Below, in pieces: positions 21,685 to 34,777 of a stretch of 64,000 nucleotides of DNA. This DNA comes from Pedobacter westerhofensis (GTDB taxonomy: Bacteria; Bacteroidota; Bacteroidia; Sphingobacteriales; Sphingobacteriaceae): contig NZ_FXTN01000001.1 in NCBI RefSeq assembly GCF_900182595.1, positions 248,001 to 312,000 on the forward strand. Direction: 5' to 3'. A program made the translations under genes and the position numbers. The notes beneath the pieces were generated by a model. That model was not told the origin of the DNA. It ran no database searches and worked only from the letters and a program-made list of their open reading frames with translations. How positions within the stretch are numbered: position 1 is the stretch's first letter; each line of letters starts with the position of its first letter.

Positions 21685-23916
21685 TTACAATACTAACAGG
21701 CCAAAATCTCTCAATGTATAAACCGGCTGAGAATACCAGAACAGTTCAAAATATTCCATTGAATTTTCATAATCGGCTTTAAGATCCTGATAAGTATAAA
21801 CTTGTGTGCCAGAAACCGACACTTTCTGTAAAATTGAAGAAAGCCACTCCCCCTCCTTTTTGCTGGTCTGGATCGTAAAGCTTTCCTTCTTGTCATGAAA
21901 GGTGAGGATCAGCATCTCCAGGGAATTTCCTTTTTTATATTTGACAAAGCTTTCTGCTTCGGGCTTCCCTCCAAGCCAAACTACCTTGGCAGTGGGTTTA
22001 GTATCAAACTTCCCCTCTTCCCTTAAAGCCTTGTCAATAAAATCCGGAGGGATGGTCACTTTCGGGATCTTAAAGTCAAACCAGTCCTGCAGTTTATAAT
22101 CCAGGCAAATGCCATGCATAAAGTTGAAAAGCGACTTTTTGAGGCCAAAACTAAATTTACCATGGTCTATTCCGGTCTGATCGATGTAGTTGATATCATT
22201 GTTGGCAAACGTTCCGATAGCTTCTGTTTCCTTTACTACCCCAAATCTTTCCGGGTACAGGCCTACCGGGCTGTGTGCAGTCATTGCAAACTGATGCCAG
22301 AATCCCGATTGCAGCACACCCGCATCAAACAATTGCCTCACCATCTCAAGGCTGTCTATGGTTTCCTGGATGGTTTGTGTAGGGTAACCATACATCAGGT
22401 AAGCATGAACCAGCACTCCTGCTTCTGTAAAATTGCGCGTAACCTGAGCTACCTGTTCAACCGATACGCCTTTGTCAATGAGTTTTAACAATCTGTCGGA
22501 CGCTACCTCCAGTCCACCGGATACGGCAATGCAGCCCGAGGCCTTTAATAAAATACATAAATCCCTGGTAAAGCTTTTTTCAAAGCGGATATTGGTCCAC
22601 CAGCTTACAGAAAGCTTTCTGCGTAGGATTTCCAGTGCCACCTCGCGCATCAGTGCCGGTGGCGCGGCCTCGTCCACAAAATGAAAGCCGCTCTGACCAG
22701 TTTTTTCGGTCAGTTCTTCAATCCGGTCTACAATCAGTTTAGCGGCAACAGGTTCATATATCTTAATATAATCCAAAGAGATATCGCAAAACGTACATTT
22801 TCCCCAGTAACAACCATGTGCCATGGTTAGTTTGTTCCAGCGGCCATCACTCCACATCCGGTGCATAGGGTTTACGATCTCGATGACAGATATATACTGG
22901 TCCAGCTGCAGGTCGCTGTAATCAGGTGTACCGACATCAGCCTGTTTATAATCGCTGCGCAAAGCATCATTTTTATAAACTACCTCCCCATTCTCCAGCA
23001 AAAAAGTTCTTTTGTACAAATTCAGTGGCAGATTGCCCATGATCGCGCTGCAGATCAGTTCAACAGGCAGCTCTCCGTCATCCAGTGAGATAAAATCAAA
23101 AAATTCAAATACCCGTTTATCAGAAACAGAGCGCAGTTCTGTATTGGCAAAACCGCCTCCCATAGATATTTTAATGTCGGGATAATTGCGTTTCACATAT
23201 TGTGCACAGCGGAAAGCTGCGTATAAATTCCCTGGAAAGGGAACAGAAATCAGGAACAGCTTAGGTTTTATCGAAGCAAGTTTTTCTTCCAAAATCTGAA
23301 TCAGGATTTTATCCATGTAGGTATACTCCTGATTGAGGGTTTCATACAGCTCATCAAAGGAGTTTGCGCTCCTGCCCAGCCTTTCGGCATAACGGCTGAA
23401 ACCAAAATTCCGATCCACACATTCGATGATAAAATCCGAAATATCCTCAAGGTACAGCGTAGCCAGATGTTTGCCTTTATCCTGTGTTCCCATGGTACCA
23501 AATGCCCAGTCGAGCTCTTCCAGCTGCGCAAATCGGGATGCTTCGGGCAGAAAATCTTCCTGACAGATCTGTAAAGCAAGGGTTGGGTTTTTACCCTGCA
23601 AAAATGAAATAACAGCGCCGATCGTTTTAATATACTCATCTTTCAGCGACAGGATACGCTTTGCATTCGCAGTTTTTGGCTGATGATGGAAGTCCTCTGC
23701 ATACATAAAAAGCTGTTCCAGGCCCTTACGGGAAAACAAAGCCAGAATCACTTCGATACCCAGATCGGCCTGTGTTGATGATATATTTTTAGTGTTCAAA
23801 AAACCTTTAATATATGCAGTTGCAGGATACGGGGTATTCAGCTGAGTGAAGGGCGGTGTGACAAGGAAAAGATCTGTTTTCAAATTGCAATAGTATTTCG
23901 CTGCAAAAATATCCAT
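21685..23916 (-). CDS. B12-binding-type radical SAM protein
   Basis: A 743-residue protein. The N-terminal half has the layout of a cobalamin-binding Rossmann domain (KPKLFLISVPFPGNLYAAF, IKISMGGGFANTEL, ISLDDGELP around 218-285). The radical SAM barrel follows, with cysteines at 369, 374 and 377. The spacing is C-x4-C-x2-C (GCYWGKCTFCD) rather than the classic C-x3-C-x2-C. FHFVDEAAPP and GLEVASDRLL are later barrel motifs. The last 130 residues are a separate, unassigned domain. The reaction is unknown; the neighbours give no hint. It is convergent with nothing and transcribed alone. Confidence 0.85.
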   Translation of the reverse strand: MDIFAAKYYCNLKTDLFLVTPPFTQLNTPYPATAYIKGFLNTKNISSTQADLGIEVILALFSRKGLEQLFMYAEDFHHQPKTANAKRILSLKDEYIKTIGAVISFLQGKNPTLALQICQEDFLPEASRFAQLEELDWAFGTMGTQDKGKHLATLYLEDISDFIIECVDRNFGFSRYAERLGRSANSFDELYETLNQEYTYMDKILIQILEEKLASIKPKLFLISVPFPGNLYAAFRCAQYVKRNYPDIKISMGGGFANTELRSVSDKRVFEFFDFISLDDGELPVELICSAIMGNLPLNLYKRTFLLENGEVVYKNDALRSDYKQADVGTPDYSDLQLDQYISVIEIVNPMHRMWSDGRWNKLTMAHGCYWGKCTFCDISLDYIKIYEPVAAKLIVDRIEELTEKTGQSGFHFVDEAAPPALMREVALEILRRKLSVSWWTNIRFEKSFTRDLCILLKASGCIAVSGGLEVASDRLLKLIDKGVSVEQVAQVTRNFTEAGVLVHAYLMYGYPTQTIQETIDSLEMVRQLFDAGVLQSGFWHQFAMTAHSPVGLYPERFGVVKETEAIGTFANNDINYIDQTGIDHGKFSFGLKKSLFNFMHGICLDYKLQDWFDFKIPKVTIPPDFIDKALREEGKFDTKPTAKVVWLGGKPEAESFVKYKKGNSLEMLILTFHDKKESFTIQTSKKEGEWLSSILQKVSVSGTQVYTYQDLKADYENSMEYFELFWYSQPVYTLRDFGLLVL

Positions 23917-24022
23917 AATTATTTTAGTATCCGGTCATATCAAACGATAAAGATTTCAGAAGAATGGTACACCTCAGTGTGTGAAAGTTGCCCTCCGGGA
24001 TATATAATGTATTTTTAAGTTG

Positions 24023-24044
24023 TATAACTGCAAAATAAGTTATA
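24023..24044 (+). promoter_or_regulatory. Candidate BlaI operator dyad
   Basis: TATAACT (24023-24029) and AGTTATA (24038-24044) form a perfect dyad with an eight-base spacer. It ends ten bases before the blaI-type ATG, where a repressor would block transcription or be part of autoregulation. The sequence differs from the classic TACAnnTGTA boxes of BlaI/MecI. Confidence 0.5.
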
Positions 24045-24054
24045 GGTTAGCCGA

Positions 24055-24423
24055 ATGGAAGAGTTAACAAAATCAGAGGAGCGTATCATGCAGATTATCT
24101 GGAAATTAGAAACCTGTTTTGTGAAAGATATCATTGAGGAAATGCCTGATGAGCCCAAGCCTCCCTACAATACCATCTCATCCATCGTAAGGATCCTCGC
24201 AAAGAAAGGTTACCTGGCCTACAAAGCGTATGGAAAGACCTATGAGTATTTTCCGGCGATCAGCAAGGAAGACTATACCAAAACTACATTTTCGAAAATT
24301 CTAAGCGGCTACTTTGATAATTCAGCCATCAGCCTGCTGTCTTTTATGGTAAAAGAACAAAAACTGAGTGATAAAGACATTGACGAATTGAATATCTTAA
24401 TCAATAAAAAATGGGGCAAATAG
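24055..24423 (+). CDS. BlaI/MecI/CopY family repressor
   Basis: A 122-residue winged-helix regulator, full family length: LTKSEERIMQIIWKLETCFV at the N-terminus, recognition-helix region PPYNTISSIVRILAKKGYLAYKAYGKTYEYFP, and a C-terminal dimerisation helix region (ILSGYFDNSAISLLSFMVKE). Proteins of this family bind DNA as dimers and are removed when a partner M56 protease is activated. The next gene encodes exactly such a protease and overlaps this one by 13 bases, so the pair is surely functionally linked. Autoregulation through the dyad just upstream is likely. Confidence 0.95.
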   Translation: MEELTKSEERIMQIIWKLETCFVKDIIEEMPDEPKPPYNTISSIVRILAKKGYLAYKAYGKTYEYFPAISKEDYTKTTFSKILSGYFDNSAISLLSFMVKEQKLSDKDIDELNILINKKWGK

Positions 24424-25871
24424 ATTTTTTGATTTATCTGGCCGGGGTGAGCCTCAGTTCATTCGCATTTTTCATTTTATACGTCCTGATTTTAAAGCAC
24501 CTTACCTTTTTTAAGATCAACAGAATATACCTGCTCTCGGCCCTGCTGTTCAGCTTCGCAATTCCATGCATCAAAATTGACACAGATCACAGGGTCATTG
24601 ATGTGCACAATGATCCTGAAATTTATCATCAGATAGAACATCTCAGCACCCTGTCCTCACAACCGTTCATTGGCAATGACCAGACATCCCTTAGCCTGGC
24701 CGGCATTATCATATATATCTACATTTTCATTACCGCAGCTCTCTTTTGTAAAGGCGTTCATGGTCTGTTTCAAATCGTAAAACACACCAAAAAGAAGGCA
24801 GTAGAAGTGAGAGGGCTAAAAGTTATTTATAAACACAGCGGATTTGTGAACTGCTCATTCTTTAATTACGTGTTTATTAACCCGGCAAGCTTCAACGTGG
24901 AGGAAATAAAAATGCTGCTGCAGCATGAGCATGTCCACGCAAAACAGTGGCACTCCGCAGATAAGATCTTCCTGCTGTTCTGTAAAACAATATTATGGTT
25001 TAACCCCCTGATTTACTGGTATGATACCGCGCTGGAACAGGCGCACGAATTCGAGGCAGATGCGATCACTTCAAAAACAGAAGATCCTGAAAGCTATGCC
25101 AGGCTGTTGATCAGAATGGGCAGCGATAAAAAATCCCATATATTGACCCATCATTTTGGGAAACATCCTGTTAAAGCACGCATTTTGATGCTCTTCGCAG
25201 CCAGGTCAAAAGCTGTGTCAGCTACGGTCTATCTGTTGGCAATTCCTGTTTTTATTGGCCTGATCTTAGTTTTTTCGGTAAAACTTGCGGCTGCCTACCC
25301 ATCTTCGGGCCCTGTATTTACGCTGATCCTTGATGCCGGACATGGCGGCAGCGATGAAGGTGCCGCTGCAGGAGATATTACCGAGAAAGAGCTGAGCCTC
25401 GGGTTAGTTAAACAAATTCAGTCCCTTGCGGAGGCCAAAGGCATCAGCGTCATCAGTACCAGAAATGATGATTCAAACCTAAGCCTCAAAAACCGCGGGC
25501 TTGCCAGAGGAGATATCATGCTCTCGGTACATTATAATACTTCAGATAACCGGAATAAAAGTGGAATTGAAATCCTGTCCGGTATTTCAGCGAATTCATC
25601 AAGGCGCTCTGTCATCAAAAACCTGAGCCTTGCGCTTTATCAGCAGCTGAGCCTGCTTGATGGTATAGCTACAGAGAACCTTTCCAGGGAAGTTACAGGC
25701 AGCTACCTGCTTGACAAAAGTGTTAGTCCGGCTATTATGCTGGAACTCGGGTACCTGAGCAATACAAATGATCGGCAATTCATCACCAGTCCTGCACACC
25801 AGAATGAACTGTCAGAAGCTATTGTAAACTCGGTTTTAGCTTACAGGGAGGCACAAATACAGCACAAATAA
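24411..25871 (+). CDS. BlaR1-like M56 membrane protease fused to an N-acetylmuramoyl-L-alanine amidase
   Basis: A 486-residue fusion. Residues 1-295 are a BlaR1/MecR1-type membrane part: helices near 8-30, 38-53, 95-115 and a last helix near 268-292, with zinc motif HEHVH (172-176) and EFEAD (213-217) of M56 peptidases. Where BlaR1 has a penicillin-binding sensor, this protein has an Amidase_3 domain (about 302-480): LDAGHGG (His311), a Glu near 325, SVHYN (His374) and the catalytic-type MLELGY (Glu445). All key residues of both enzymes are visible. By BlaR1 topology the amidase lies in the periplasm. It probably senses or trims peptidoglycan and signals by cleaving the BlaI-type repressor. 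Its stop overlaps the next start (TAATG). Confidence 0.92.
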   Translation: MGQIDFLIYLAGVSLSSFAFFILYVLILKHLTFFKINRIYLLSALLFSFAIPCIKIDTDHRVIDVHNDPEIYHQIEHLSTLSSQPFIGNDQTSLSLAGIIIYIYIFITAALFCKGVHGLFQIVKHTKKKAVEVRGLKVIYKHSGFVNCSFFNYVFINPASFNVEEIKMLLQHEHVHAKQWHSADKIFLLFCKTILWFNPLIYWYDTALEQAHEFEADAITSKTEDPESYARLLIRMGSDKKSHILTHHFGKHPVKARILMLFAARSKAVSATVYLLAIPVFIGLILVFSVKLAAAYPSSGPVFTLILDAGHGGSDEGAAAGDITEKELSLGLVKQIQSLAEAKGISVISTRNDDSNLSLKNRGLARGDIMLSVHYNTSDNRNKSGIEILSGISANSSRRSVIKNLSLALYQQLSLLDGIATENLSREVTGSYLLDKSVSPAIMLELGYLSNTNDRQFITSPAHQNELSEAIVNSVLAYREAQIQHK

Positions 25872-28069
25872 TGATGTGCCCGAAATCAATGCTTCTATTT
25901 ATTTTGATTTCCCCGCTGGCGGCAGATGGCCAGATCAGTATTCCCGCCACTGTTCAGGACACGCTGAATAAATCTCTTTCAGGCCGCACAGCCCGGGAGT
26001 TAAAAGAAATCCGGATTACTTCAAAAAAACAGCTTATAGAAAAACAGATCGACAGAACTGTTTTTACTATTGAAAATACCATTGCAGGAACCGGCAGTGA
26101 TGCCCTGGAAGTGCTCGGAAAGATTCCGGGGCTTAGGGCCGATGATCACTCGGTATCCCTCGCAGGTAAAGGAAGCCTCAGCGTGATGATCAACGACCGG
26201 CTGATCAATTTATCAGCAGAGGATCTTTCAAATTATCTCAAATCGATATCTTCAGATAACATTTCAAAAGTAGAAGTAATCACTAGCCCACCGGCAAAGT
26301 ATGACGCCCAGGGCAATAACGGGCTGATCAATATCATCTTAAAAAAACAGAAGGACGAAGGTTTACAGGGCAGCATTACCGGAAGTTACAGTAAAGCCAG
26401 CTATTTCGCAGTTACAGGCAGCGGCGATATCAGCTACAGGAACAGAAAGTTCAGTGTTTCTTCGGGTTTTAGTATCCGAGACGGCTCTGTATACCCACAG
26501 GAAAGCAGCAGTATTTTCTATCCTAAACAAACCTGGGATATACTCAACAGGTTCCGCAATTTCAGGAAGATCACAAGCGGCCAGCTGGCGATCGATTACC
26601 AGCTTTCAAAAAAACTTTTAATAGGGGCGCTGTACAATGGCAGCCATACGGATTTTCATTCAGATGAAGAAGTCCGCTCCCGTATCTATAATCCCGCAGG
26701 AAATCAGGATTCATTGCTCCTATCGCAGGCAAATGCAAAAATCAGTTCCGGCTTTAGCTCTGCAGGTCTTTTTTTTAAACAAAAGATAGACACCAGCGGT
26801 ACGCAGCTGCTGATCAATGCGGATTGGTTTGGCAATAGAAACGACAGCCAGCGGCAGTTTGACAATCATACCTATATCAATGGGAATCAACTGCGCGAAG
26901 GCTCATTTGCCCAGTATTTATCTTCAAGTGCACAGCTCGTAGATGTGTATACGCTAAAAGCTGATATGGATATCCCCTTCCAGTTTTATCAATTATCTTT
27001 TGGCAGCAAGCTCAGTTTCATCCGCAATGCGAGCGATATTGCATTCTACCAAAAATTCAATGATCAGTATATGATTGATCAGGCACAGTCCAACATCTTT
27101 AATTACACTGAAAACACGCAGGCACTCTATCTTAACCTGAACAGGAAATATAATAAATGGAGTTTGCAAACCGGTTTGCGCGGAGAGTACACACAGACAA
27201 GAGGTATCTCCATCATAAGCAGTCAGACAACTGTCAACCGCTATCTGCGGCTGTTCCCCACGGCATTCCTGCATTATCGCCCGGATCTTTTTCATACGTT
27301 ATCCTTCAGTTATAGCAAAAGGATCAACCGTCCGCCCTACAGGTATTTAAATCCTTTCAGATGGTACAGTAATCAGTACGTTTATGCCGAAGGCAACCCC
27401 TTTTTGAAGCCATCGTACAATAATAATTTTGAGTTATCACATTTGTATAGAAACTTAATTACAACTACCTTGTCGTATAGTCATACGAATAATGGATACA
27501 GTAATGTTAATTTTACAGATACACTTTCAAACCAGCAGGTATCAAAACCGGTTAATTTTATGACAGGTAACAACTATCAGCTCAGTAATTCATTATCAGT
27601 TACCCAAATCAGCTGGCTCCAGAGCAACAATGAAATTGATATCAGCTACAACAGATCTGCATCCACTATCCGGGGAACCGCTCCAGGATTGGCCCGGTTG
27701 AGTTATTATCTCTCTACAAGCAATCAGTTTTACTTTGTAAAGGATAAAACATTTTCAGGCGAACTCACTTTTTGGTACCAGTTTAAAAATATTGATGCAT
27801 TACAAGTCAGGGAGGCGCAGTATAACTTAAATGCCGGGGCAAAAATGCTGGTGTTAAAAAAGCATGTGATGCTGACGGCTAGCATAACCGATTTGCTTAA
27901 ATCCAATATCTACCGGTATAGCACAGTCGTGAACGGCATTGAGCAAAGGTATGACAATTATTACGATACCAGGCAATTGAGGCTAAGCCTGAGATACACT
28001 TTTGGAAATGAAAAGCTGAGGCAACAAAACCGGCAGCCGGGAAATACAGACGAAACGAAAAGAAATTAA
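25871..28069 (+). CDS. Outer membrane beta-barrel / TonB-dependent receptor-like protein
   Basis: A 732-residue outer membrane protein with a signal peptide (about 1-22, ending ADGQ). Unlike the other two barrel receptors in the window it lacks the carboxypeptidase-like N-terminal domain and begins almost directly with a plug domain (LKEIRITSKKQLIEKQIDRT, LSVMINDRL, VEVITSPPAKYDAQGNNG). A long barrel of OMP_b-brl_3 type follows, with SFSYSKRINRPPYRYLNPF, and ends ...LRYTFGN before a short hydrophilic tail. Its start overlaps the amidase-fusion stop by one base, so expression is tied to the BlaI/M56 pair. The ligand is unknown; a muropeptide or wall fragment would fit the context but is only a guess. 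Confidence 0.88.
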   Translation: MMCPKSMLLFILISPLAADGQISIPATVQDTLNKSLSGRTARELKEIRITSKKQLIEKQIDRTVFTIENTIAGTGSDALEVLGKIPGLRADDHSVSLAGKGSLSVMINDRLINLSAEDLSNYLKSISSDNISKVEVITSPPAKYDAQGNNGLINIILKKQKDEGLQGSITGSYSKASYFAVTGSGDISYRNRKFSVSSGFSIRDGSVYPQESSSIFYPKQTWDILNRFRNFRKITSGQLAIDYQLSKKLLIGALYNGSHTDFHSDEEVRSRIYNPAGNQDSLLLSQANAKISSGFSSAGLFFKQKIDTSGTQLLINADWFGNRNDSQRQFDNHTYINGNQLREGSFAQYLSSSAQLVDVYTLKADMDIPFQFYQLSFGSKLSFIRNASDIAFYQKFNDQYMIDQAQSNIFNYTENTQALYLNLNRKYNKWSLQTGLRGEYTQTRGISIISSQTTVNRYLRLFPTAFLHYRPDLFHTLSFSYSKRINRPPYRYLNPFRWYSNQYVYAEGNPFLKPSYNNNFELSHLYRNLITTTLSYSHTNNGYSNVNFTDTLSNQQVSKPVNFMTGNNYQLSNSLSVTQISWLQSNNEIDISYNRSASTIRGTAPGLARLSYYLSTSNQFYFVKDKTFSGELTFWYQFKNIDALQVREAQYNLNAGAKMLVLKKHVMLTASITDLLKSNIYRYSTVVNGIEQRYDNYYDTRQLRLSLRYTFGNEKLRQQNRQPGNTDETKRN

Positions 28070-28087
28070 TTACACTAAGAACAGCTT

Positions 28088-30529
28088 ATGATCAACCCCA
28101 CATTCAAGCAACCTTATTTATTCATTATCCTGCTCACCTGCTTTTTCTCCAGGGGATTTTCGCAAAGTAAACCCGCCATCACAATCAAGGGGATCATTAA
28201 AAATTCGAATAATGAAGCCATTGACGGTGCAACTGTATTTTTAAAAGATGGCACCAGCGGTCAGGTTCTTAATCAGAGATTAAGCGGCGGGGACGGAACT
28301 TTTTCTTTTACTGCCGCTGCTGGAACTTACGTTCTTTCTATCAGTTATTTAGGCACACTGGCGTACCAGAGCGACCTGCTCAAATCTGGCAGTGCAGATC
28401 TGGGAACAATCAAAATCGTGACTGCAGCCCGCAGTTTAAAGGAGGTGGTGATACAAAGCTCGGCCACCAGGCCACTGATTAAAATCGAAGGGCGCAAAAT
28501 GATTTATGATGTTGCGAAAAGTATAACTGCCCAGGGCAGCACAGCATTGGAAGCCTTAAAGAAAACACCCGGGGTGATCGTTAACCAGGATAACACCGTC
28601 ACCTTAAACGGAGCCAGCGGTGCTTTGATCATGATCAACGGCAGGCAAACCTATTTACAGGCCGAAGAGCTGGCAACGTTACTAAAGTCCCTGCCCGCTT
28701 CTGATTTAAAATCGATTGAAATCATCAAAAACCCATCTGCAGAATATGATGCCGCAGGAACCGGCGGGATCATTAACCTGGTGCTGCAAAAAGCATTGGC
28801 CGAAGGTTTTAACGGCAGTATTAATAACGGCATTACCTATGGTAAAACCATTAAGCAGAACACCAATCTGAACCTCAATTACCGCCAGGGAAAAGTAAAC
28901 CTTTTTGGAACATACAACCACAGGTATGGACATTACGCTATGGATTACGACAATGACCGGACAACAAACGGCAAGGTGTATTTAAATGCAAATCATGATA
29001 TCGACAAACAGCACAATACGGGATCAACCCTGGGAGCAGATTATGCAATAGATACCACAAAAACGATTGGAATTGTGATGAATGGTAATGTATCAAGCGG
29101 CGGCGGCGTGATTACACCTTTTACGAGTATCTTTGATCAGTCGTCCGGACAGCTTTTACAGACGCTGAGAAGTGAAAGCACCTATCCCGAACAGATCGCT
29201 AAGCGTTATAACGCCAACCTCAATTACAGGTACAAAGGCAGCAATCAGACTACGCTGGATATTGACGCGGACTATGGGATTTTTGATGCTTCTACAGATA
29301 ACCTGAGCACCAATACGTACTACTCGCCTGCCGGGCAATTCCTGTCGTCCAACAACTTCCTCGTATCCAATAGCAGGAATATTAAGCTTTATGCCCTTAA
29401 AGCAGATTATGGTTTTCCACTTGGAAAAGGAAAAATGACAACTGGTGCAAAGTACTCTGATGTAAACGCGAAAAATGTTTTTAACCAGTATGATGTTAAC
29501 GGAGACACTAAAATTCTTGATATCGACCTTTCAAATACCTTCAGCTATCAGGAACAGATCAGCGCGGGGTATATAAAATATGAAAGTCCCCTGGGGGAAA
29601 AACTGAGCATGGATGTTGGGATCAGGATGGAAAATACCCACTCGAACGGTGATTTGCAGCCGCGGGAAGGCAGCAGCCAGCAGGCTACATCGGTAGTGAG
29701 GAATTATCTGAACTTCTTCCCCACTACGGCAATCACCTATAAAACCAGTGAATCCGGCACTTACAACTTGAGCTTTGCCCGCCGCATCGACAGGCCTGCG
29801 TATAACAACCTGAACCCCTTTTCATATCCCGCTGACGAACTTTCCTACTGGAAAGGAAATCCGTTTTTACAGCCGCAGTACGCCAATACGCTGGCACTGC
29901 AGTACAGCTACAAAAGTACCACCATCGCCACCAGTTATACCCATACCACTGACCTGAGCCGCCCGATAACGGAAGTAGCAGAAGGAGACCTGATCTATTC
30001 TGTTCCCAGGAACATCGGGACCCAGAATAACCTTAACCTGACGGTAACGCAACAGCTGAGGGCTGCGAAATGGTGGAATATAAGCCTTACAGGCATAGGT
30101 TACCGGCTGGAGAACAATGTGGGAACGGCGGACTTTGGATATTACAACCGAAGCCGTTTTGCAGGTACGATCAATGTTCAGCAAACATTTAATTTACCGG
30201 GGAAGATCACGGCTGAAGCCGCAGGAGTGGTTAATTCCAAAAACATCAGCGGGATCAATACCTATGTAAAAGGTAATTCGCAAGTCGATCTCGGGCTCCA
30301 AAAGAACTTAATCAAAGATAAAGCTACATTAAGGCTCGCTGTTACAGATCTGTTCAGAGAAAACAGGATCAACACAGATACACAGCTGAATAATCTGCTG
30401 CAGCACACTACATACAGGGGCGAGACACGGCAGGTAAGGATAAATTTCACTTACCGCTTTGGTAACAATAAGATCAGGAGCAAGGACAGCCGTGAGACCG
30501 GCCTGCAAAATGAATCTGAGCGATTATAA
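28088..30529 (+). CDS. Outer membrane beta-barrel / TonB-dependent receptor-like protein
   Basis: An 813-residue outer membrane protein. A signal peptide (about 1-26, ending RGFSQ) is followed by a carboxypeptidase-regulatory-like domain (about 30-110), a plug with VVIQSSATRPLIKIEGRKMI and LIMINGRQTY, and a barrel with SFARRIDRPAYNNLNPF, ending ...NFTYRFGNN. It starts 18 bases after the previous receptor and closes the BlaI-M56/amidase-receptor-receptor operon. The two receptors share general layout but differ much in sequence, so they are probably not a recent duplication. A GC-rich hairpin follows directly after the stop. Confidence 0.88.
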   Translation: MINPTFKQPYLFIILLTCFFSRGFSQSKPAITIKGIIKNSNNEAIDGATVFLKDGTSGQVLNQRLSGGDGTFSFTAAAGTYVLSISYLGTLAYQSDLLKSGSADLGTIKIVTAARSLKEVVIQSSATRPLIKIEGRKMIYDVAKSITAQGSTALEALKKTPGVIVNQDNTVTLNGASGALIMINGRQTYLQAEELATLLKSLPASDLKSIEIIKNPSAEYDAAGTGGIINLVLQKALAEGFNGSINNGITYGKTIKQNTNLNLNYRQGKVNLFGTYNHRYGHYAMDYDNDRTTNGKVYLNANHDIDKQHNTGSTLGADYAIDTTKTIGIVMNGNVSSGGGVITPFTSIFDQSSGQLLQTLRSESTYPEQIAKRYNANLNYRYKGSNQTTLDIDADYGIFDASTDNLSTNTYYSPAGQFLSSNNFLVSNSRNIKLYALKADYGFPLGKGKMTTGAKYSDVNAKNVFNQYDVNGDTKILDIDLSNTFSYQEQISAGYIKYESPLGEKLSMDVGIRMENTHSNGDLQPREGSSQQATSVVRNYLNFFPTTAITYKTSESGTYNLSFARRIDRPAYNNLNPFSYPADELSYWKGNPFLQPQYANTLALQYSYKSTTIATSYTHTTDLSRPITEVAEGDLIYSVPRNIGTQNNLNLTVTQQLRAAKWWNISLTGIGYRLENNVGTADFGYYNRSRFAGTINVQQTFNLPGKITAEAAGVVNSKNISGINTYVKGNSQVDLGLQKNLIKDKATLRLAVTDLFRENRINTDTQLNNLLQHTTYRGETRQVRINFTYRFGNNKIRSKDSRETGLQNESERL

Positions 30530-30939: not shown

Positions 30940-32832
30940 TTATAAAGCCGATTTAGTGTCCCAATGATTGTTAGCAGGATTGATATCCAGATCAAAAGCA
31001 CCTCCGAGATCAATGCGGGCAATTGATTTTGACTGTTTTAAGAAGATAATAACTTCTTTATTTCCCTTTTTCCAGCAGCTCACATTTTTAGATACAGTTG
31101 CACTGCTTCCGTCAGCATAATATACTGACAGATGAATCGGAACGGCCAGTGTTCCGGGGCTCGAAATCGTAATCACATAACCTGCACCGCTATGTACCAC
31201 TTTTGATATTGCCAGATCAGGAACATTTTTTTCAAAATACCAGTTTTTCCAGAACCACTGCAGACCGGCCCCGGTACTGCTTTCCATACTATTAAAGAAA
31301 TCATAAGGCGTAGGATGTTTGCCTGCCCAGGTCCGGATATAATGTTGTACAGCTTTTACAAATAGCTCGTGCCCCAGCAACTCTCTTAAGTAAAGATTTG
31401 CCAGGGCGGGTTTCAAATCCTTATCAGCGTAACGGGCTTTACCATAAAGCTGGGGAGTTGGAGTAATTAATGGCATATCCTCGGCGGTACCTGCGCTATT
31501 ATTTGCGTCACTTATACTATATTCCAGCGGTACTGCAGGATCAATCATTGGAGAAAGATAAAATTCTGAAAATGTAGCCCATCCTTCGTCCATAAAGGAA
31601 TACTTCGTTTCGTTTGTGCCCACATAAAAGGGGAATATACTATGGAACACTTCATGCGTGGTGAGTTCCAGCAGTTCGTTCTGATCTTTAAAAGGCAGGT
31701 TATTGACCATCATGGGATATTCCATTGCATCAAGCCCATCAAAGATTGTCTGATGCGGATAAGGAAAAGGAATTTTTGGAAAGTGGTTACTGATCAGTGC
31801 AACAGTTTTTGCAGCATAACCAGCCACTTTATAATAAGAAGAATGGGAAGGATTAAATACCGCATCAATTCTGCTGCGTCTTCTGGTTAGGGTATCTGTC
31901 AACACGCTGCCCGCCTGCCATACATAATGATCACTGAGGCCGAAGGCAAAATCTGTAACGTTGAGGGCCTCAAATTTCCAGGTATTGAATTTGTTTTTTT
32001 GATTGACATTCCCATTTTTGTGATCAGCGGGTGTGATGATATCTATAATTCCGTCTCCTTTTTCAGCCTGGCTGATCCTGTCCCTGATAACCGGCTGGAA
32101 TACACTTTCAGGGTTTTTAAGGTCGCCTGTGGCCCACACCTGGTAATTTCCCGGAACAGTAAGGGATACCTGAAAGTTACCGTAGTCGTTGTAAAATTCT
32201 TCCTTGCCCATATACGGATATTCATTCCATCCATCGATATCATCGTACACGGTAATCCTTGGAAAAAAATAGGCGATAAAAAAGCTACCGGAATCTACCT
32301 GCCCGGTTCTAACAAAAGAACCCTTGTTGATCCGATAGCCATAGTCAATATCAACCTTCACCTGCTTTCCGGGCAACACTGTTACTCCCGGAAGATACAT
32401 GTTGGTGCCCCGGATTTTACGCCTGGTTCCATCATACTGCTTCCCGTCAATCATAATTGTGCGGACAGCCACTCCTTCTCCCAGATCATCCGGGGATACG
32501 GGCATATTACGCATCGCATCACTTTTATAGAAATTAGGATATAACTTAAATACCAGTGACTTTAGTGTATCAGGACTGTTATTGGTATATAAAATATGGA
32601 CTTTGCCTTGCAGGTTCCCCGTAGAAGGATCAAAATCCACCGCAATGGCATAATCAGCACAATTTTGCCAGTAATTTATACCTGGTGTACCGGTTTTATT
32701 GCGCGTATGGTTTTGATTGGCTTTTGCAACAGTACGTATTACCGGAATTTCCTGGCCATATAATATGGGCAATGTTAAGTTTACAAATACCAAAAAAGAA
32801 AATGTGAATTTCAGGTTATGAATTTTTTTCAT
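30940..32832 (-). CDS. M1-family metallopeptidase (aminopeptidase)
   Basis: A 630-residue secreted zinc peptidase with signal peptide (about 1-27). The N-terminal beta-domain is followed by the gluzincin core: DAMEYPMMVNN in place of the GAMEN exopeptidase motif, then HEVFH (zinc ligands and catalytic Glu) and the downstream DEGWATFSEF, whose Glu is the third ligand. Such proteins remove N-terminal residues from peptides, here probably in the periplasm or at the surface. The start is the ATG at 32832, since the two codons before it begin with a TTG. It is divergent from a LytS/LytTR pair, which may or may not control it. Confidence 0.88.
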   Translation of the reverse strand: MKKIHNLKFTFSFLVFVNLTLPILYGQEIPVIRTVAKANQNHTRNKTGTPGINYWQNCADYAIAVDFDPSTGNLQGKVHILYTNNSPDTLKSLVFKLYPNFYKSDAMRNMPVSPDDLGEGVAVRTIMIDGKQYDGTRRKIRGTNMYLPGVTVLPGKQVKVDIDYGYRINKGSFVRTGQVDSGSFFIAYFFPRITVYDDIDGWNEYPYMGKEEFYNDYGNFQVSLTVPGNYQVWATGDLKNPESVFQPVIRDRISQAEKGDGIIDIITPADHKNGNVNQKNKFNTWKFEALNVTDFAFGLSDHYVWQAGSVLTDTLTRRRSRIDAVFNPSHSSYYKVAGYAAKTVALISNHFPKIPFPYPHQTIFDGLDAMEYPMMVNNLPFKDQNELLELTTHEVFHSIFPFYVGTNETKYSFMDEGWATFSEFYLSPMIDPAVPLEYSISDANNSAGTAEDMPLITPTPQLYGKARYADKDLKPALANLYLRELLGHELFVKAVQHYIRTWAGKHPTPYDFFNSMESSTGAGLQWFWKNWYFEKNVPDLAISKVVHSGAGYVITISSPGTLAVPIHLSVYYADGSSATVSKNVSCWKKGNKEVIIFLKQSKSIARIDLGGAFDLDINPANNHWDTKSAL

Positions 32833-32983
32833 ACACAAATAGAGAAATATCTTTCGGTTTTTTTTCTCATTTTAGACTAAGGGTATATTTCCATCCTTCA
32901 ACGGTACACTCATACTATAACCGTTAATATCGCATACGGCTCCTGCCGCCGGAGGATCATAAACCGTCATTCGTCGAAAAATT

Positions 32984-33013
32984 GTTGGAAATCTTCGTTA
33001 TTCTTCATCTTTG
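32984..33013 (+). promoter_or_regulatory. Candidate promoter of the LytS/LytTR pair (leaderless)
   Basis: GTTG at 32984-32987 and CATCTTTG at 33006-33013 approach the Bacteroidota TTTG-N19-TAnnTTTG consensus, with an 18-base spacer. The expected transcription start would fall almost on the ATG at 33018, giving a leaderless or nearly leaderless mRNA and supporting that start codon. Confidence 0.45.
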
Positions 33014-33017
33014 CAGG

Positions 33018-34055
33018 ATGAGAGAAAGTGAAAGCGTCAGTGTTACCGGAAAACATCTGATTTTCTGGTTACTCTATATCTCGTACATCATTGTAACAGA
33101 AGGCTGGACTGAGAGCGATAACTGGACATTTCGCATTGCCCCACAGGCGATTGTCAATTTACTGACAGGCATCATATTGGTATATGTTAACCTTAACCTG
33201 CTGATGCCTGCATTTTACACAAGAGGCCGTTATCTGAGCTATGCTGCTTCTTTGTTTACCCTGCTGCTAGCCGGGGGCCTGTTTATCCGCTTTATCTCAT
33301 ACTCCCTGTTTATTCCTATGGAGCATTCACGTAATCCGCTTAGCTGGCAGCCAACCAATTTCTGGATCACTGCACGGATTTTCAAAGACGTGCTTGAAGT
33401 TATTCCTGTAGTCACTATTACCATGGTGCTCAAACTGATGAGGGACAGCCATCAAAGAGAGATCAGGCTCAGGGCAACTGAGAATGAAAAATATAACGCG
33501 GAAATTAACATGTTAAAGGGACAGATGAATCCTCATTTCTTTTTCAATACCCTGAACAGCCTGTACTCATTGAGCCTTAACGCGTCTCCAGACTCACCAA
33601 AAATGATCATGAACTTATCCAACCTGATGAGATACATACTTTACGAGGCCGCAAATGATAAAGTCCCTTTGATTAAGGATCTTAATCATATCAGCAACTA
33701 TCTTGAAATAGAAAACATGCGCTTTGGCGACCGTCTTGAATTGTCCGCACAATCTTCAGGAGATATAGGGGGACAATGGATTGCCCCCCTGCTTTTACTT
33801 CCTTTTATTGAAAACGCATTTAAACATGGTATCGAAGATGGAAGCGGATGGATCACCATTGACGTAAAAGTTGCCGGAAAGCGCCTGTATTTAAGGGTTG
33901 AAAACAGCTTCCCTCAAATTCTGCATACAAAACAATCGGGGATCGGGTTAAAAAATGTAAGAAGGCGGCTTGATCTGCTCTACCCGCTCCGTCATACACT
34001 CCTCGTCTCACAGCAAAAAGATTCTTACAAAGTAGACTTGAAAATTGATTTATGA
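33018..34055 (+). CDS. LytS-family sensor histidine kinase
   Basis: A 345-residue membrane kinase. Four hydrophobic helices fill the first 140 residues and carry no recognised extracellular sensor domain. The cytoplasmic part has the His_kinase (PF06580) signature QMNPHFFFNTLNSLYSL, whose His is the phosphorylation site, and the ATP-binding PFIENAFKHG and GIGLKNVRRRLDLLY motifs. The ATG at 33018 is preferred over 32982 because a promoter-like element ends at 33013. Its stop overlaps the regulator start by four bases (ATGA), so the two form a two-component system. The signal and target genes are unknown. Confidence 0.92.
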   Translation: MRESESVSVTGKHLIFWLLYISYIIVTEGWTESDNWTFRIAPQAIVNLLTGIILVYVNLNLLMPAFYTRGRYLSYAASLFTLLLAGGLFIRFISYSLFIPMEHSRNPLSWQPTNFWITARIFKDVLEVIPVVTITMVLKLMRDSHQREIRLRATENEKYNAEINMLKGQMNPHFFFNTLNSLYSLSLNASPDSPKMIMNLSNLMRYILYEAANDKVPLIKDLNHISNYLEIENMRFGDRLELSAQSSGDIGGQWIAPLLLLPFIENAFKHGIEDGSGWITIDVKVAGKRLYLRVENSFPQILHTKQSGIGLKNVRRRLDLLYPLRHTLLVSQQKDSYKVDLKIDL

Positions 34056-34777
34056 AAGAAATAAGATGTCTGATTGCAGATGATGAACTGCTGGCAAGAA
34101 ACGTGATTAAAAGTCATATTGAACTGATTGGAAACCTGCAGGTAGTAGCGGAATGTAAAACCGGTACAGAGGTTTATCATACGATTTCTGACCATCAGAC
34201 AGATCTTGTTTTTCTTGATATCAAAATGCCGGGTATTAGTGGGATAGAACTTTTGCGAACATTAAAAAATCCTCCCGGCGTCATTATTACTACAGCTTAC
34301 AGTGAGTTTGCAGTTGAAGGTTATGAATTAAATGTTATCGATTATTTATTAAAGCCGATATCATTTGAGCGTTTCCTGAAAGCCGTTAATAAATTTCGGC
34401 TTTTGACAAATACACTGGTACTGCAGCAGGAAAAAAATCTACTCTCTGGAACTTTGAATGAATTACAGCCATTTATATACGTAAAAACAGAAAGGAAAAT
34501 GGTGAAAATTTTATTCAGTGATATTTTATATATAGAAGGACTTAAAGACTATGTGAAAATTGAAACAACTGACCAGCAACACATTACCTATAGTACTTTA
34601 ACTTATTTCCAGGATCGTTTACCCGATAACCGCTTTATCAGGATACACAGGTCTTTTATCGTAAACCTGGCCTGTATAAGTTCATTTTCCGGCGGAGTGG
34701 TCATGATCAATACCGTACCAATCTCAATTGGCAGAACGTACCTGAAAAAGGTTAAAACGATCCTGAGTAAACTCTGA
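34052..34777 (+). CDS. LytTR-family response regulator
   Basis: A 241-residue two-component regulator. The receiver domain (1-120) has the acidic pair at 10-11, phospho-accepting Asp56 in VFLDIKMPG and the LLKPISFERF loop. A LytTR DNA-binding domain follows (about 140-241; FIYVKTERKMVKILFSDIL, FIRIHRSFIVNL). Partner of the overlapping sensor kinase. LytTR proteins bind pairs of short direct repeats about two helical turns apart; I did not find an obvious pair next to this gene. Its stop lies one base from the stop of the convergent small membrane gene. Confidence 0.94.
   Translation: MKEIRCLIADDELLARNVIKSHIELIGNLQVVAECKTGTEVYHTISDHQTDLVFLDIKMPGISGIELLRTLKNPPGVIITTAYSEFAVEGYELNVIDYLLKPISFERFLKAVNKFRLLTNTLVLQQEKNLLSGTLNELQPFIYVKTERKMVKILFSDILYIEGLKDYVKIETTDQQHITYSTLTYFQDRLPDNRFIRIHRSFIVNLACISSFSGGVVMINTVPISIGRTYLKKVKTILSKL

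Follow-up and report, generated by a model that had tools for sequence, protein, structure and literature searches.

BlaR1 is known as an antibiotic sensor. In the BlaR1/MecR1–BlaI/MecI systems of Staphylococcus aureus and Bacillus licheniformis, a repressor gene lies beside the gene for a four-helix M56 protease (HExxH..E), which has a self-cleavage Phe and a C-terminal domain in the sensor position, and a dyad lies at the promoter. According to passages of PMC9834060, BlaR1 cleaves itself between Ser283 and Phe284 and BlaI is cut between Asn101 and Phe102; the same passages propose that the beta-lactam displaces the extracellular loop EL1 (residues 56-96) of BlaR1 from the sensor cleft. Wall amidases of the Amidase_3 family, among them LytH, CwlV, CwlD and AmiA/B/C, share a fold and an H-E-H plus Glu residue set. 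In S. aureus, LytH is paired with ActH, a membrane rhomboid-type protein; to our knowledge this pair has no BlaI, and its membrane partner is not an M56 protease. Here we describe a putative operon of Pedobacter westerhofensis in which an M56 protease and an Amidase_3 domain form one protein, encoded next to a BlaI/MecI-type repressor, in a stretch of 64,000 nucleotides (contig NZ_FXTN01000001.1, positions 248,001 to 312,000 of the forward strand; all of this stretch is "the window" below). Our preferred reading, to which we give a probability of roughly 60%, is a BlaR1-type one-protein transmembrane switch with the amidase as sensor, probably also as effector, controlling its own operon.

Open reading frame (ORF) checks gave one plus-strand run of four genes at 24055-30529, encoding BlaI, the M56-Amidase_3 fusion and two barrels (BB1 and BB2), bounded by two minus-strand genes, one for a radical-SAM protein (21685-23916) and one for an M1 peptidase (30940-32838). 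BlaI and the fusion overlap by 13 bases, the fusion and BB1 are joined by a TAATG, and BB1 and BB2 are 18 bases apart. A preliminary description of this DNA had given the same gene calls and junctions, and all were as stated when the ORFs and coordinates were re-read. We infer that the four genes form a single transcription unit. The features are the following.

24020-24050, plus strand: putative Bacteroidota-type promoter, TTG (24020-24022)-N20-TAGGTTAG (24043-24050), with the candidate BlaI operator within its spacer
24023-24044, no strand assigned: inverted repeat TATAACT-N8-AGTTATA, candidate BlaI operator, with the core AACT-N8-AGTT at 24026-24041
24055-24423, plus strand: BlaI/MecI-type repressor, 122 amino acids (Pfam Penicillinase_R, 103.5 bits)
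24411-25871, plus strand: M56-Amidase_3 fusion, 486 amino acids (Pfam, structure model)
24570-24695, plus strand: fusion loop 54-95 between helices 2 and 3, positional counterpart of BlaR1 EL1 (residues 56-96)
24924-24938, plus strand: HEHVH zinc-protease motif of the fusion, residues 172-176, with further conserved H212, E213 and D217
25155-25157, plus strand: F249 of the fusion, aligned with BlaR1 F284 (P1' residue of self-cleavage) and kept in 62/64 fusions
25326-25835, plus strand: Amidase_3 domain of the fusion, residues 306-475 (104.1 bits against a cut-off of 27), with H311, E325, H374 and E445
25871-28069, plus strand: BB1, OMP_b-brl_3 outer-membrane barrel (Pfam, 293 bits), a recurrent cassette member within the genus
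28088-30529, plus strand: BB2, TonB-dependent-receptor-type barrel (Pfam CarboxypepD_reg, Plug and OMP_b-brl_3, 298.7 bits)

The first half of the fusion resembles BlaR1 in domain content, predicted structure and key residues. Peptidase_M56 covers residues 150-261 (46.4 bits against a Pfam cut-off of 31), and the BlaR1-like part extends to about residue 295, where Amidase_3 takes over. In the structure model (mean predicted local distance difference test, pLDDT, 75.4; 22 sequences), helices are predicted at 3-28, 34-53 and 96-126, followed by the protease, a helix at 267-295 and an alpha/beta domain; the predicted order is thus the BlaR1 plan of three helices, protease, fourth helix and extracytoplasmic domain. 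Against cryo-EM chains of S. aureus BlaR1, residues 3-256 of the model reached Z 14.7-17.5 in alignments of 211-227 residues, the root-mean-square deviation (rmsd) being 3.4-4.2 Å. A PDB comparison with a profile of ten M56 parts found BlaR1 alone at E up to 0.001 (8exp; sequence E 7.6e-8, domain E 1.4e-6, high composition bias), and the alignment placed the conserved Phe, F249 in the window, on BlaR1 F284. The M56 domain, the helices and this structural alignment all agree with the preliminary description, which had recognised the BlaR1 plan. Among 64 distinct fusion proteins, H172, E173, H176, E213 and D217 were invariant and H212 was present in 62. With its P1' Phe, the fusion has a predicted self-cleavage loop of the BlaR1/MecR1 type. 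The loop between helices 2 and 3 is 40-52 residues long across the 64 fusions and is the least conserved part of the protein.

The sensor position is where the fusion departs from BlaR1 and MecR1. Pfam found no penicillin-binding domain in the fusion, only Amidase_3 past residue 295, and the host is a Gram-negative member of the Bacteroidota, unlike S. aureus and B. licheniformis. Neither a beta-lactamase nor mecA was among the six flanking window genes scanned, although more distant targets may exist; the predicted output is the operon itself with its barrels. As far as its sequence tells, the fusion works like BlaR1, and because it has no penicillin sensor we regard it as a variant of the BlaR1 kind and not as BlaR1 proper. 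Its homology to BlaR1, and that of its neighbour to BlaI, could also mean that it is the remnant of an ordinary BlaR1 still answering beta-lactams, and a penicillin-acylase-family gene (PF01804) does lie beside two related, barrel-less BlaI-M56 loci, convergent with them (L035:9022-11193, minus strand; L042:4316-6487, plus strand). The missing penicillin-binding domain, and the lack of a beta-lactamase or acylase among those six flanking genes, make such a degenerate sensor highly improbable. Similar-sized genes, unscanned, occupy the same place in several other barrel-less BlaI-M56 loci.

The second half of the fusion is an Amidase_3 domain by both fold and residues, and peptidoglycan amidase activity is predicted. 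Residues ~297-486 of the model matched wall amidases at Z up to 23.6 (4rn7 and LytH 7tj4), the range across LytH, CwlV, CwlD and AmiA/B/C being 21-24, and Foldseek on the fusion model returned the same two families, BlaR1 and wall amidases, with LytH among the nearest folds. Unlike in those amidases, the domain is joined behind an M56 protease; as in LytH-ActH an amidase goes with a membrane protein, here in one chain where S. aureus has two separate proteins. We take H311, E325 and H374 to be the zinc ligands and E445 the catalytic Glu. All four are present in the window fusion, in line with the complete catalytic set claimed in the preliminary description, and all four are kept together in 60/64 fusions (H311 and E325 in 64/64, H374 in 62/64, E445 in 60/64). 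Thus, protease core residues were never lost in the fusion set and amidase residues seldom. Conservation was the same for the two parts (0.61 each). A shed amidase, released at a signal-peptidase site behind helix 4, was considered and is not supported: a loose A-x-A-like pattern occurred in 41/64 fusions, at no common aligned position.

The repressor and its promoter region point to the same kind of control as in BlaR1/MecR1 systems. The window BlaI has a Penicillinase_R domain and a palindromic candidate operator at its own promoter, as expected of a putative BlaI/MecI-type repressor. Its S96-F97 (24340-24345, plus strand) aligns with N101-F102 of MecI, so that Ser-Phe stands where MecI has Asn-Phe; at this position, Ser was found in 57/58 and Phe in 55/58 BlaI proteins from fusion loci. 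The dyad AACT-N8-AGTT was present upstream of BlaI in 52/58 fusion loci, against 0.2 expected from shuffling that preserved base composition only. In several of these loci it is repeated in tandem, 20 bases apart, and in the window a degenerate second dyad begins at 24006. We took TTG-N18-22-TAnnTTTG to be the Bacteroidota promoter consensus and applied it to these upstream regions; the dyad lay inside it in 37/58 fusion loci, a count that leaves out the window because its -7-like box has one mismatch to the consensus. Sigma-70 and terminator scans gave no signal above shuffle level. The proposed proteolysis of BlaI gains support from the conserved self-cleavage Phe, the conserved Ser-Phe of BlaI and the promoter-region dyad, and judged by sequence the protease-repressor arm as a whole appears well supported.

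Genome-wide searches pointed to the operon itself as the only well-supported BlaI target, though others may exist. The combined operator and TAnnTTTG pattern (one mismatch allowed) matched six times in 61 family genomes, once each in six of them, with a single match in the window genome, against none in the control. Each of the six was followed, after roughly the length of one BlaI gene, by a listed M56 match (the BlaI gene of G001 was not read itself); three were fusion loci. In the window genome the 22-base dyad pattern, with up to three mismatches, matched at the BlaI site (no mismatch, the sole exact match in that genome) and at C7:217068 (two mismatches), against five control matches. With two mismatches, the tandem dyad gave 2-9 forward matches against 1-8 in the control across nine genomes; matches exceeded the control in some, such as G115 (9 vs 1), G061 (6 vs 2) and G423 (4 vs 1), and fell below it in others. 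Except at G609:C23:111371, a site flanked by two divergent genes behind the barrel, every exact tandem match preceded a fusion cassette or, at G121:C3, a different BlaI-M56 locus; sites with one mismatch were looked into in part only. One of these sites lies in L241 (G584:C17:108456), a further BlaI-M56-barrel locus, where the tandem dyad sits close to the junction of M56 and barrel genes and is possibly an internal operator. TACTACA-type sites, taken from distant loci, matched 1-2 times per genome, against 0-4 in the control.

The fusion is no artefact: it is widespread in the genus and also occurs in other families. In a profile search, full-length matches (at least 460 of 489 profile positions) were found in at least 55 of the 145 genus genomes, among them the window genome, with E up to 1e-85. 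They were also found in at least nine genomes of a class sample of 395, again including the window genome, and in at least two further genomes (G871, G1022) of a phylum sample of 395; all full-length matches listed in these two samples came from the window's own class or nearer. Outside the genus there were at least 12 fusion loci, and Winogradskyella (L069) is a named carrier outside the family. Matches across the genus and other families rule out an assembly artefact, and also uniqueness to this genome, which the preliminary description had named as a possible refutation along with splitting in relatives. Splitting was seen only in the sense that many relatives carry the M56 part with another tail. 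A plasmid search gave 55 records, none of which held 80% of the query in one place. The match in genome G185, limited to model positions 2-320, was left uncounted; the locus there (L052:6554-8991) is a decayed cassette whose M56 and amidase pieces lie in different frames, and it was entered as amidase-less.

Neighbours were read in 52 of the 55 genus genomes (G145, G188 and G191 were left out) and in ten loci outside the genus, with identical proteins or loci counted once. Short loci with too little flank (L001-L034, L095-L126) were excluded from the counts, as were L212 and L213, which were added later. Whether BlaI and barrels always accompany the fusion was a point raised by the preliminary description; BlaI nearly always did and barrels did not. 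BlaI was immediately upstream in 59/62 distinct loci and a barrel was in the same-strand run (ended by a gap of >120 bases) in 40/62, which are frequencies among loci fetched by a fusion-profile match, not among all M56 loci. Of the three remaining loci, L149 and L152 have an M56 gene between the fusion and an upstream BlaI, and L038 lacks BlaI. All 40 barrel loci were inside the genus (40/52), far above a random neighbour given 42 OMP_b-brl_3 matches in the window genome of 6.3 Mb.

The run consisted of BlaI and the fusion alone in 12/62 loci and had no barrel in 22/62. These counts agree with an amidase that is simply a membrane-anchored wall enzyme, dosed by BlaI and M56, with the signal sensed by the membrane, a loop or BlaI itself. 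The catalytic residues kept in 60/64 amidases and the equal conservation of the two halves fit this too, and passages of PMC3305447 describe direct binding of a peptidoglycan dipeptide to BlaI/MecI, with such binding to BlaI itself as input in B. licheniformis. Against it, the amidase sits in the BlaR1 sensor position, the same position in other M56 proteins holds domains not known as enzymes, and four homologues retain the domain after loss of catalytic residues, which is odd for a pure enzyme. We consider such a tethered effector without a sensing role rather unlikely.

Of the two receptors that the preliminary description had coupled to the run, the first is a recurrent neighbour and the second is local. 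In the eight closest layouts (L140-L147) a barrel lies beside the fusion in all, 28-55% identical to BB1, and none of the eight has a second barrel in the run; BB2 is just 26-29% identical to their barrels. Plug was matched in BB2 and not in BB1 (Pfam, E 0.001). No result here supports the import of wall fragments by these barrels, which the same description had suggested. When runs were ended at gaps of >150 bases, amidase and barrel occurred together in 38/59 loci, and a barrel in 2/41 loci without an amidase. Independent co-evolution of the two was not established by this comparison, which comes down to only two independent contrasts on supported branches of the BlaI tree.

The barrels raise the question of whether the M56 protein instead reports on TonB-dependent transport, with the amidase merely docking it to the wall or trimming the wall. 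The 40/52 genus loci with a barrel and the 38/59 against 2/41 comparison favour this, as does TonB_C, which was found in 19/59 M56 proteins and in two M56-Amidase_3-TonB_C fusions (L130:7451-9952, minus strand; L213:101-2218, plus strand). In part of PMC10470040, moreover, a Porphyromonas gingivalis BlaI-family gene beside an M56 gene is tabulated among hemin-supply-dependent genes. On the other side are the ten loci outside the genus, all without a barrel, the mere two contrasts behind the amidase-barrel association, and the window fusion itself, in which Pfam found no TonB domain. A receptor-centred role is, in our view, improbable.

M56 relatives place the fusion among many variants of one core. 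The 59 M56 proteins at hand, which are no random sample and of which two are fusions (L212, L213), had the C-terminal domains TonB_C (19), Plug (13), CarboxypepD_reg (7), LptD_N (3) and M23 (1). These other Bacteroidota BlaI-M56 pairs, with TonB_C, Plug, CarboxypepD_reg, LptA-like or M23 tails, share with the window locus the repressor-protease core and, in 20/45 amidase-less loci, the type of dyad; they differ in the C-terminal domain and rarely have a downstream barrel (the 2/41 above). Single loci show further combinations: M56-Amidase_3-Plug (L131:7957-10146, plus strand), BlaI beside an M56-Peptidase_M23 fusion, a second wall-hydrolase class with M23 confirmed (L223:7382-8743, minus strand), and the order BlaI, M56 with C-terminal ankyrin repeats, barrel (L222:5872-8025, minus strand). 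The M56-M23 fusion also speaks for a switch of the preferred kind.

A common Pedobacter order is BlaI, M56-amidase (~519 amino acids), a second M56 protein (~730 amino acids) and a barrel. The second protein has an OB-like plus LptA/LptD-like tail (e.g. L043:6998-9193, minus strand; L056:8001-10196, plus strand) and, going by its weak model (pLDDT 59.8), may be an envelope sensor on the lipopolysaccharide (LPS) side. Its tail matched LptD, LptA, LptC and OB-type folds in Foldseek at E down to 8e-7; the 8e-7 Lpt matches run over ~200 columns and several domains with an rmsd near 17 Å, and the best local match is LptA 8gaj (96 columns, rmsd 2.7 Å, E 1.6e-3). M56-amidase together with an Lpt-like tail also occurs in relatives L035, L036 and L153. 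The Pfam cut-off for LptD_N was passed in L042 and missed in L036 and L153; no LptD_N match was reported for L035.

The history of the fusion is most simply read as an old fusion followed by loss or replacement of the amidase; repeated gain is also possible. A quick M56 tree (73 of 141 rows) required nine changes of amidase presence, of which starred branches forced six. The amidase tree comprised 35 fused and 23 standalone rows, four of the latter being duplicates from overlapping loci. Here 30/35 fused rows formed one group (support 87/86), distinct from the standalone rows, which came from ten genomes, and the remaining five were placed among standalone rows without resolution. A recent chance fusion with a housekeeping amidase is not favoured, given that group of 30.

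Several observations weigh against an amidase-sensing switch of the BlaR1 type. The NCBIfam model blaR1_generic gave the window fusion 23.1 bits against a cut-off of 400, and the window BlaI fell far below the cut-offs of the NCBIfam BlaI/MecI/CopY models. Tandem second copies of the fusion in L036 and L153, each behind an intact fusion, lack the zinc His and catalytic Glu, and the distant fusions L038 and L039 lack the catalytic Glu; catalysis is therefore not always needed. The protease arm serves further signals as well, given how common amidase-less M56 relatives are, and 0/10 loci read outside the genus have a barrel. Ser-Phe is also found in BlaI of amidase-less loci (Ser 44/46, Phe 41/46). 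The dyad is present in 20/45 such loci, with the promoter form in 10/45, and therefore belongs to the wider BlaI-M56 group; both features thus support the protease-repressor arm and not the amidase. All fused amidases formed a single clade in 2% of 200 bootstrap trees, an arrangement that was not rejected (approximately unbiased test, p 0.41).

For the switch with an amidase sensor, which we still prefer, the following course is proposed. The fusion would sit in the inner membrane with both termini outside, the M56 protease facing the cytoplasm and the amidase in the periplasm. The amidase cleft would be filled by peptidoglycan or one of its fragments, and the sensor would then pack differently against the membrane and the loop between helices 2 and 3, much as proposed for the beta-lactam in BlaR1. 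The protease site would then be released from its own self-cleavage loop and cut BlaI, probably at S96-F97; BlaI would leave the putative operator in its own promoter, and BlaI, the fusion, BB1 and BB2 would be expressed. That the amidase reads the wall is suggested by its position in the BlaR1 plan and its retention in the four homologues after catalytic loss. That it also acts on the wall is suggested by the complete residue set in 60/64 and the 12 loci with BlaI and the fusion only. Since the full set is retained in most homologues and a fair number of runs consist of BlaI and the fusion alone, the amidase probably serves as sensor and effector at once. Such a dual amidase would form a self-limiting loop adjusting wall trimming, with the receptor added within Pedobacter. 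More tentatively, a working peptidoglycan hydrolase might itself be the sensor: by way of a zinc protease it would signal its substrate to the repressor that sets its dose (in Pedobacter also that of a receptor). Through the common M56 partner, which bears OB-like and LptA/LptD-like domains, a single repressor would then be informed about the wall and about the outer-membrane/LPS side of the envelope alike; we hold this possible and no more.

In the open-licence literature searched we found no described M56-amidase system, which agrees with the preliminary description in knowing none of this layout; the passages of PMC12578637 and PMC7254926 contained nothing on BlaI-M56. A histidine kinase (PF06580) and LytTR response regulator pair lies close downstream of the run (window 32982-34777, Pfam).

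The BlaR1-type protease-repressor switch described here has a wall enzyme where BlaR1 has its sensor; at other places in the Bacteroidota the switch bears TonB, LptA-like or M23 tails. If our reading is true, BlaR1 would belong, as a specialised case, to a wide family that monitors the envelope, and the operon would be a compact model for wall sensing in a Gram-negative phylum. It suggests a way in which Pedobacter and its relatives may monitor their own cell wall.

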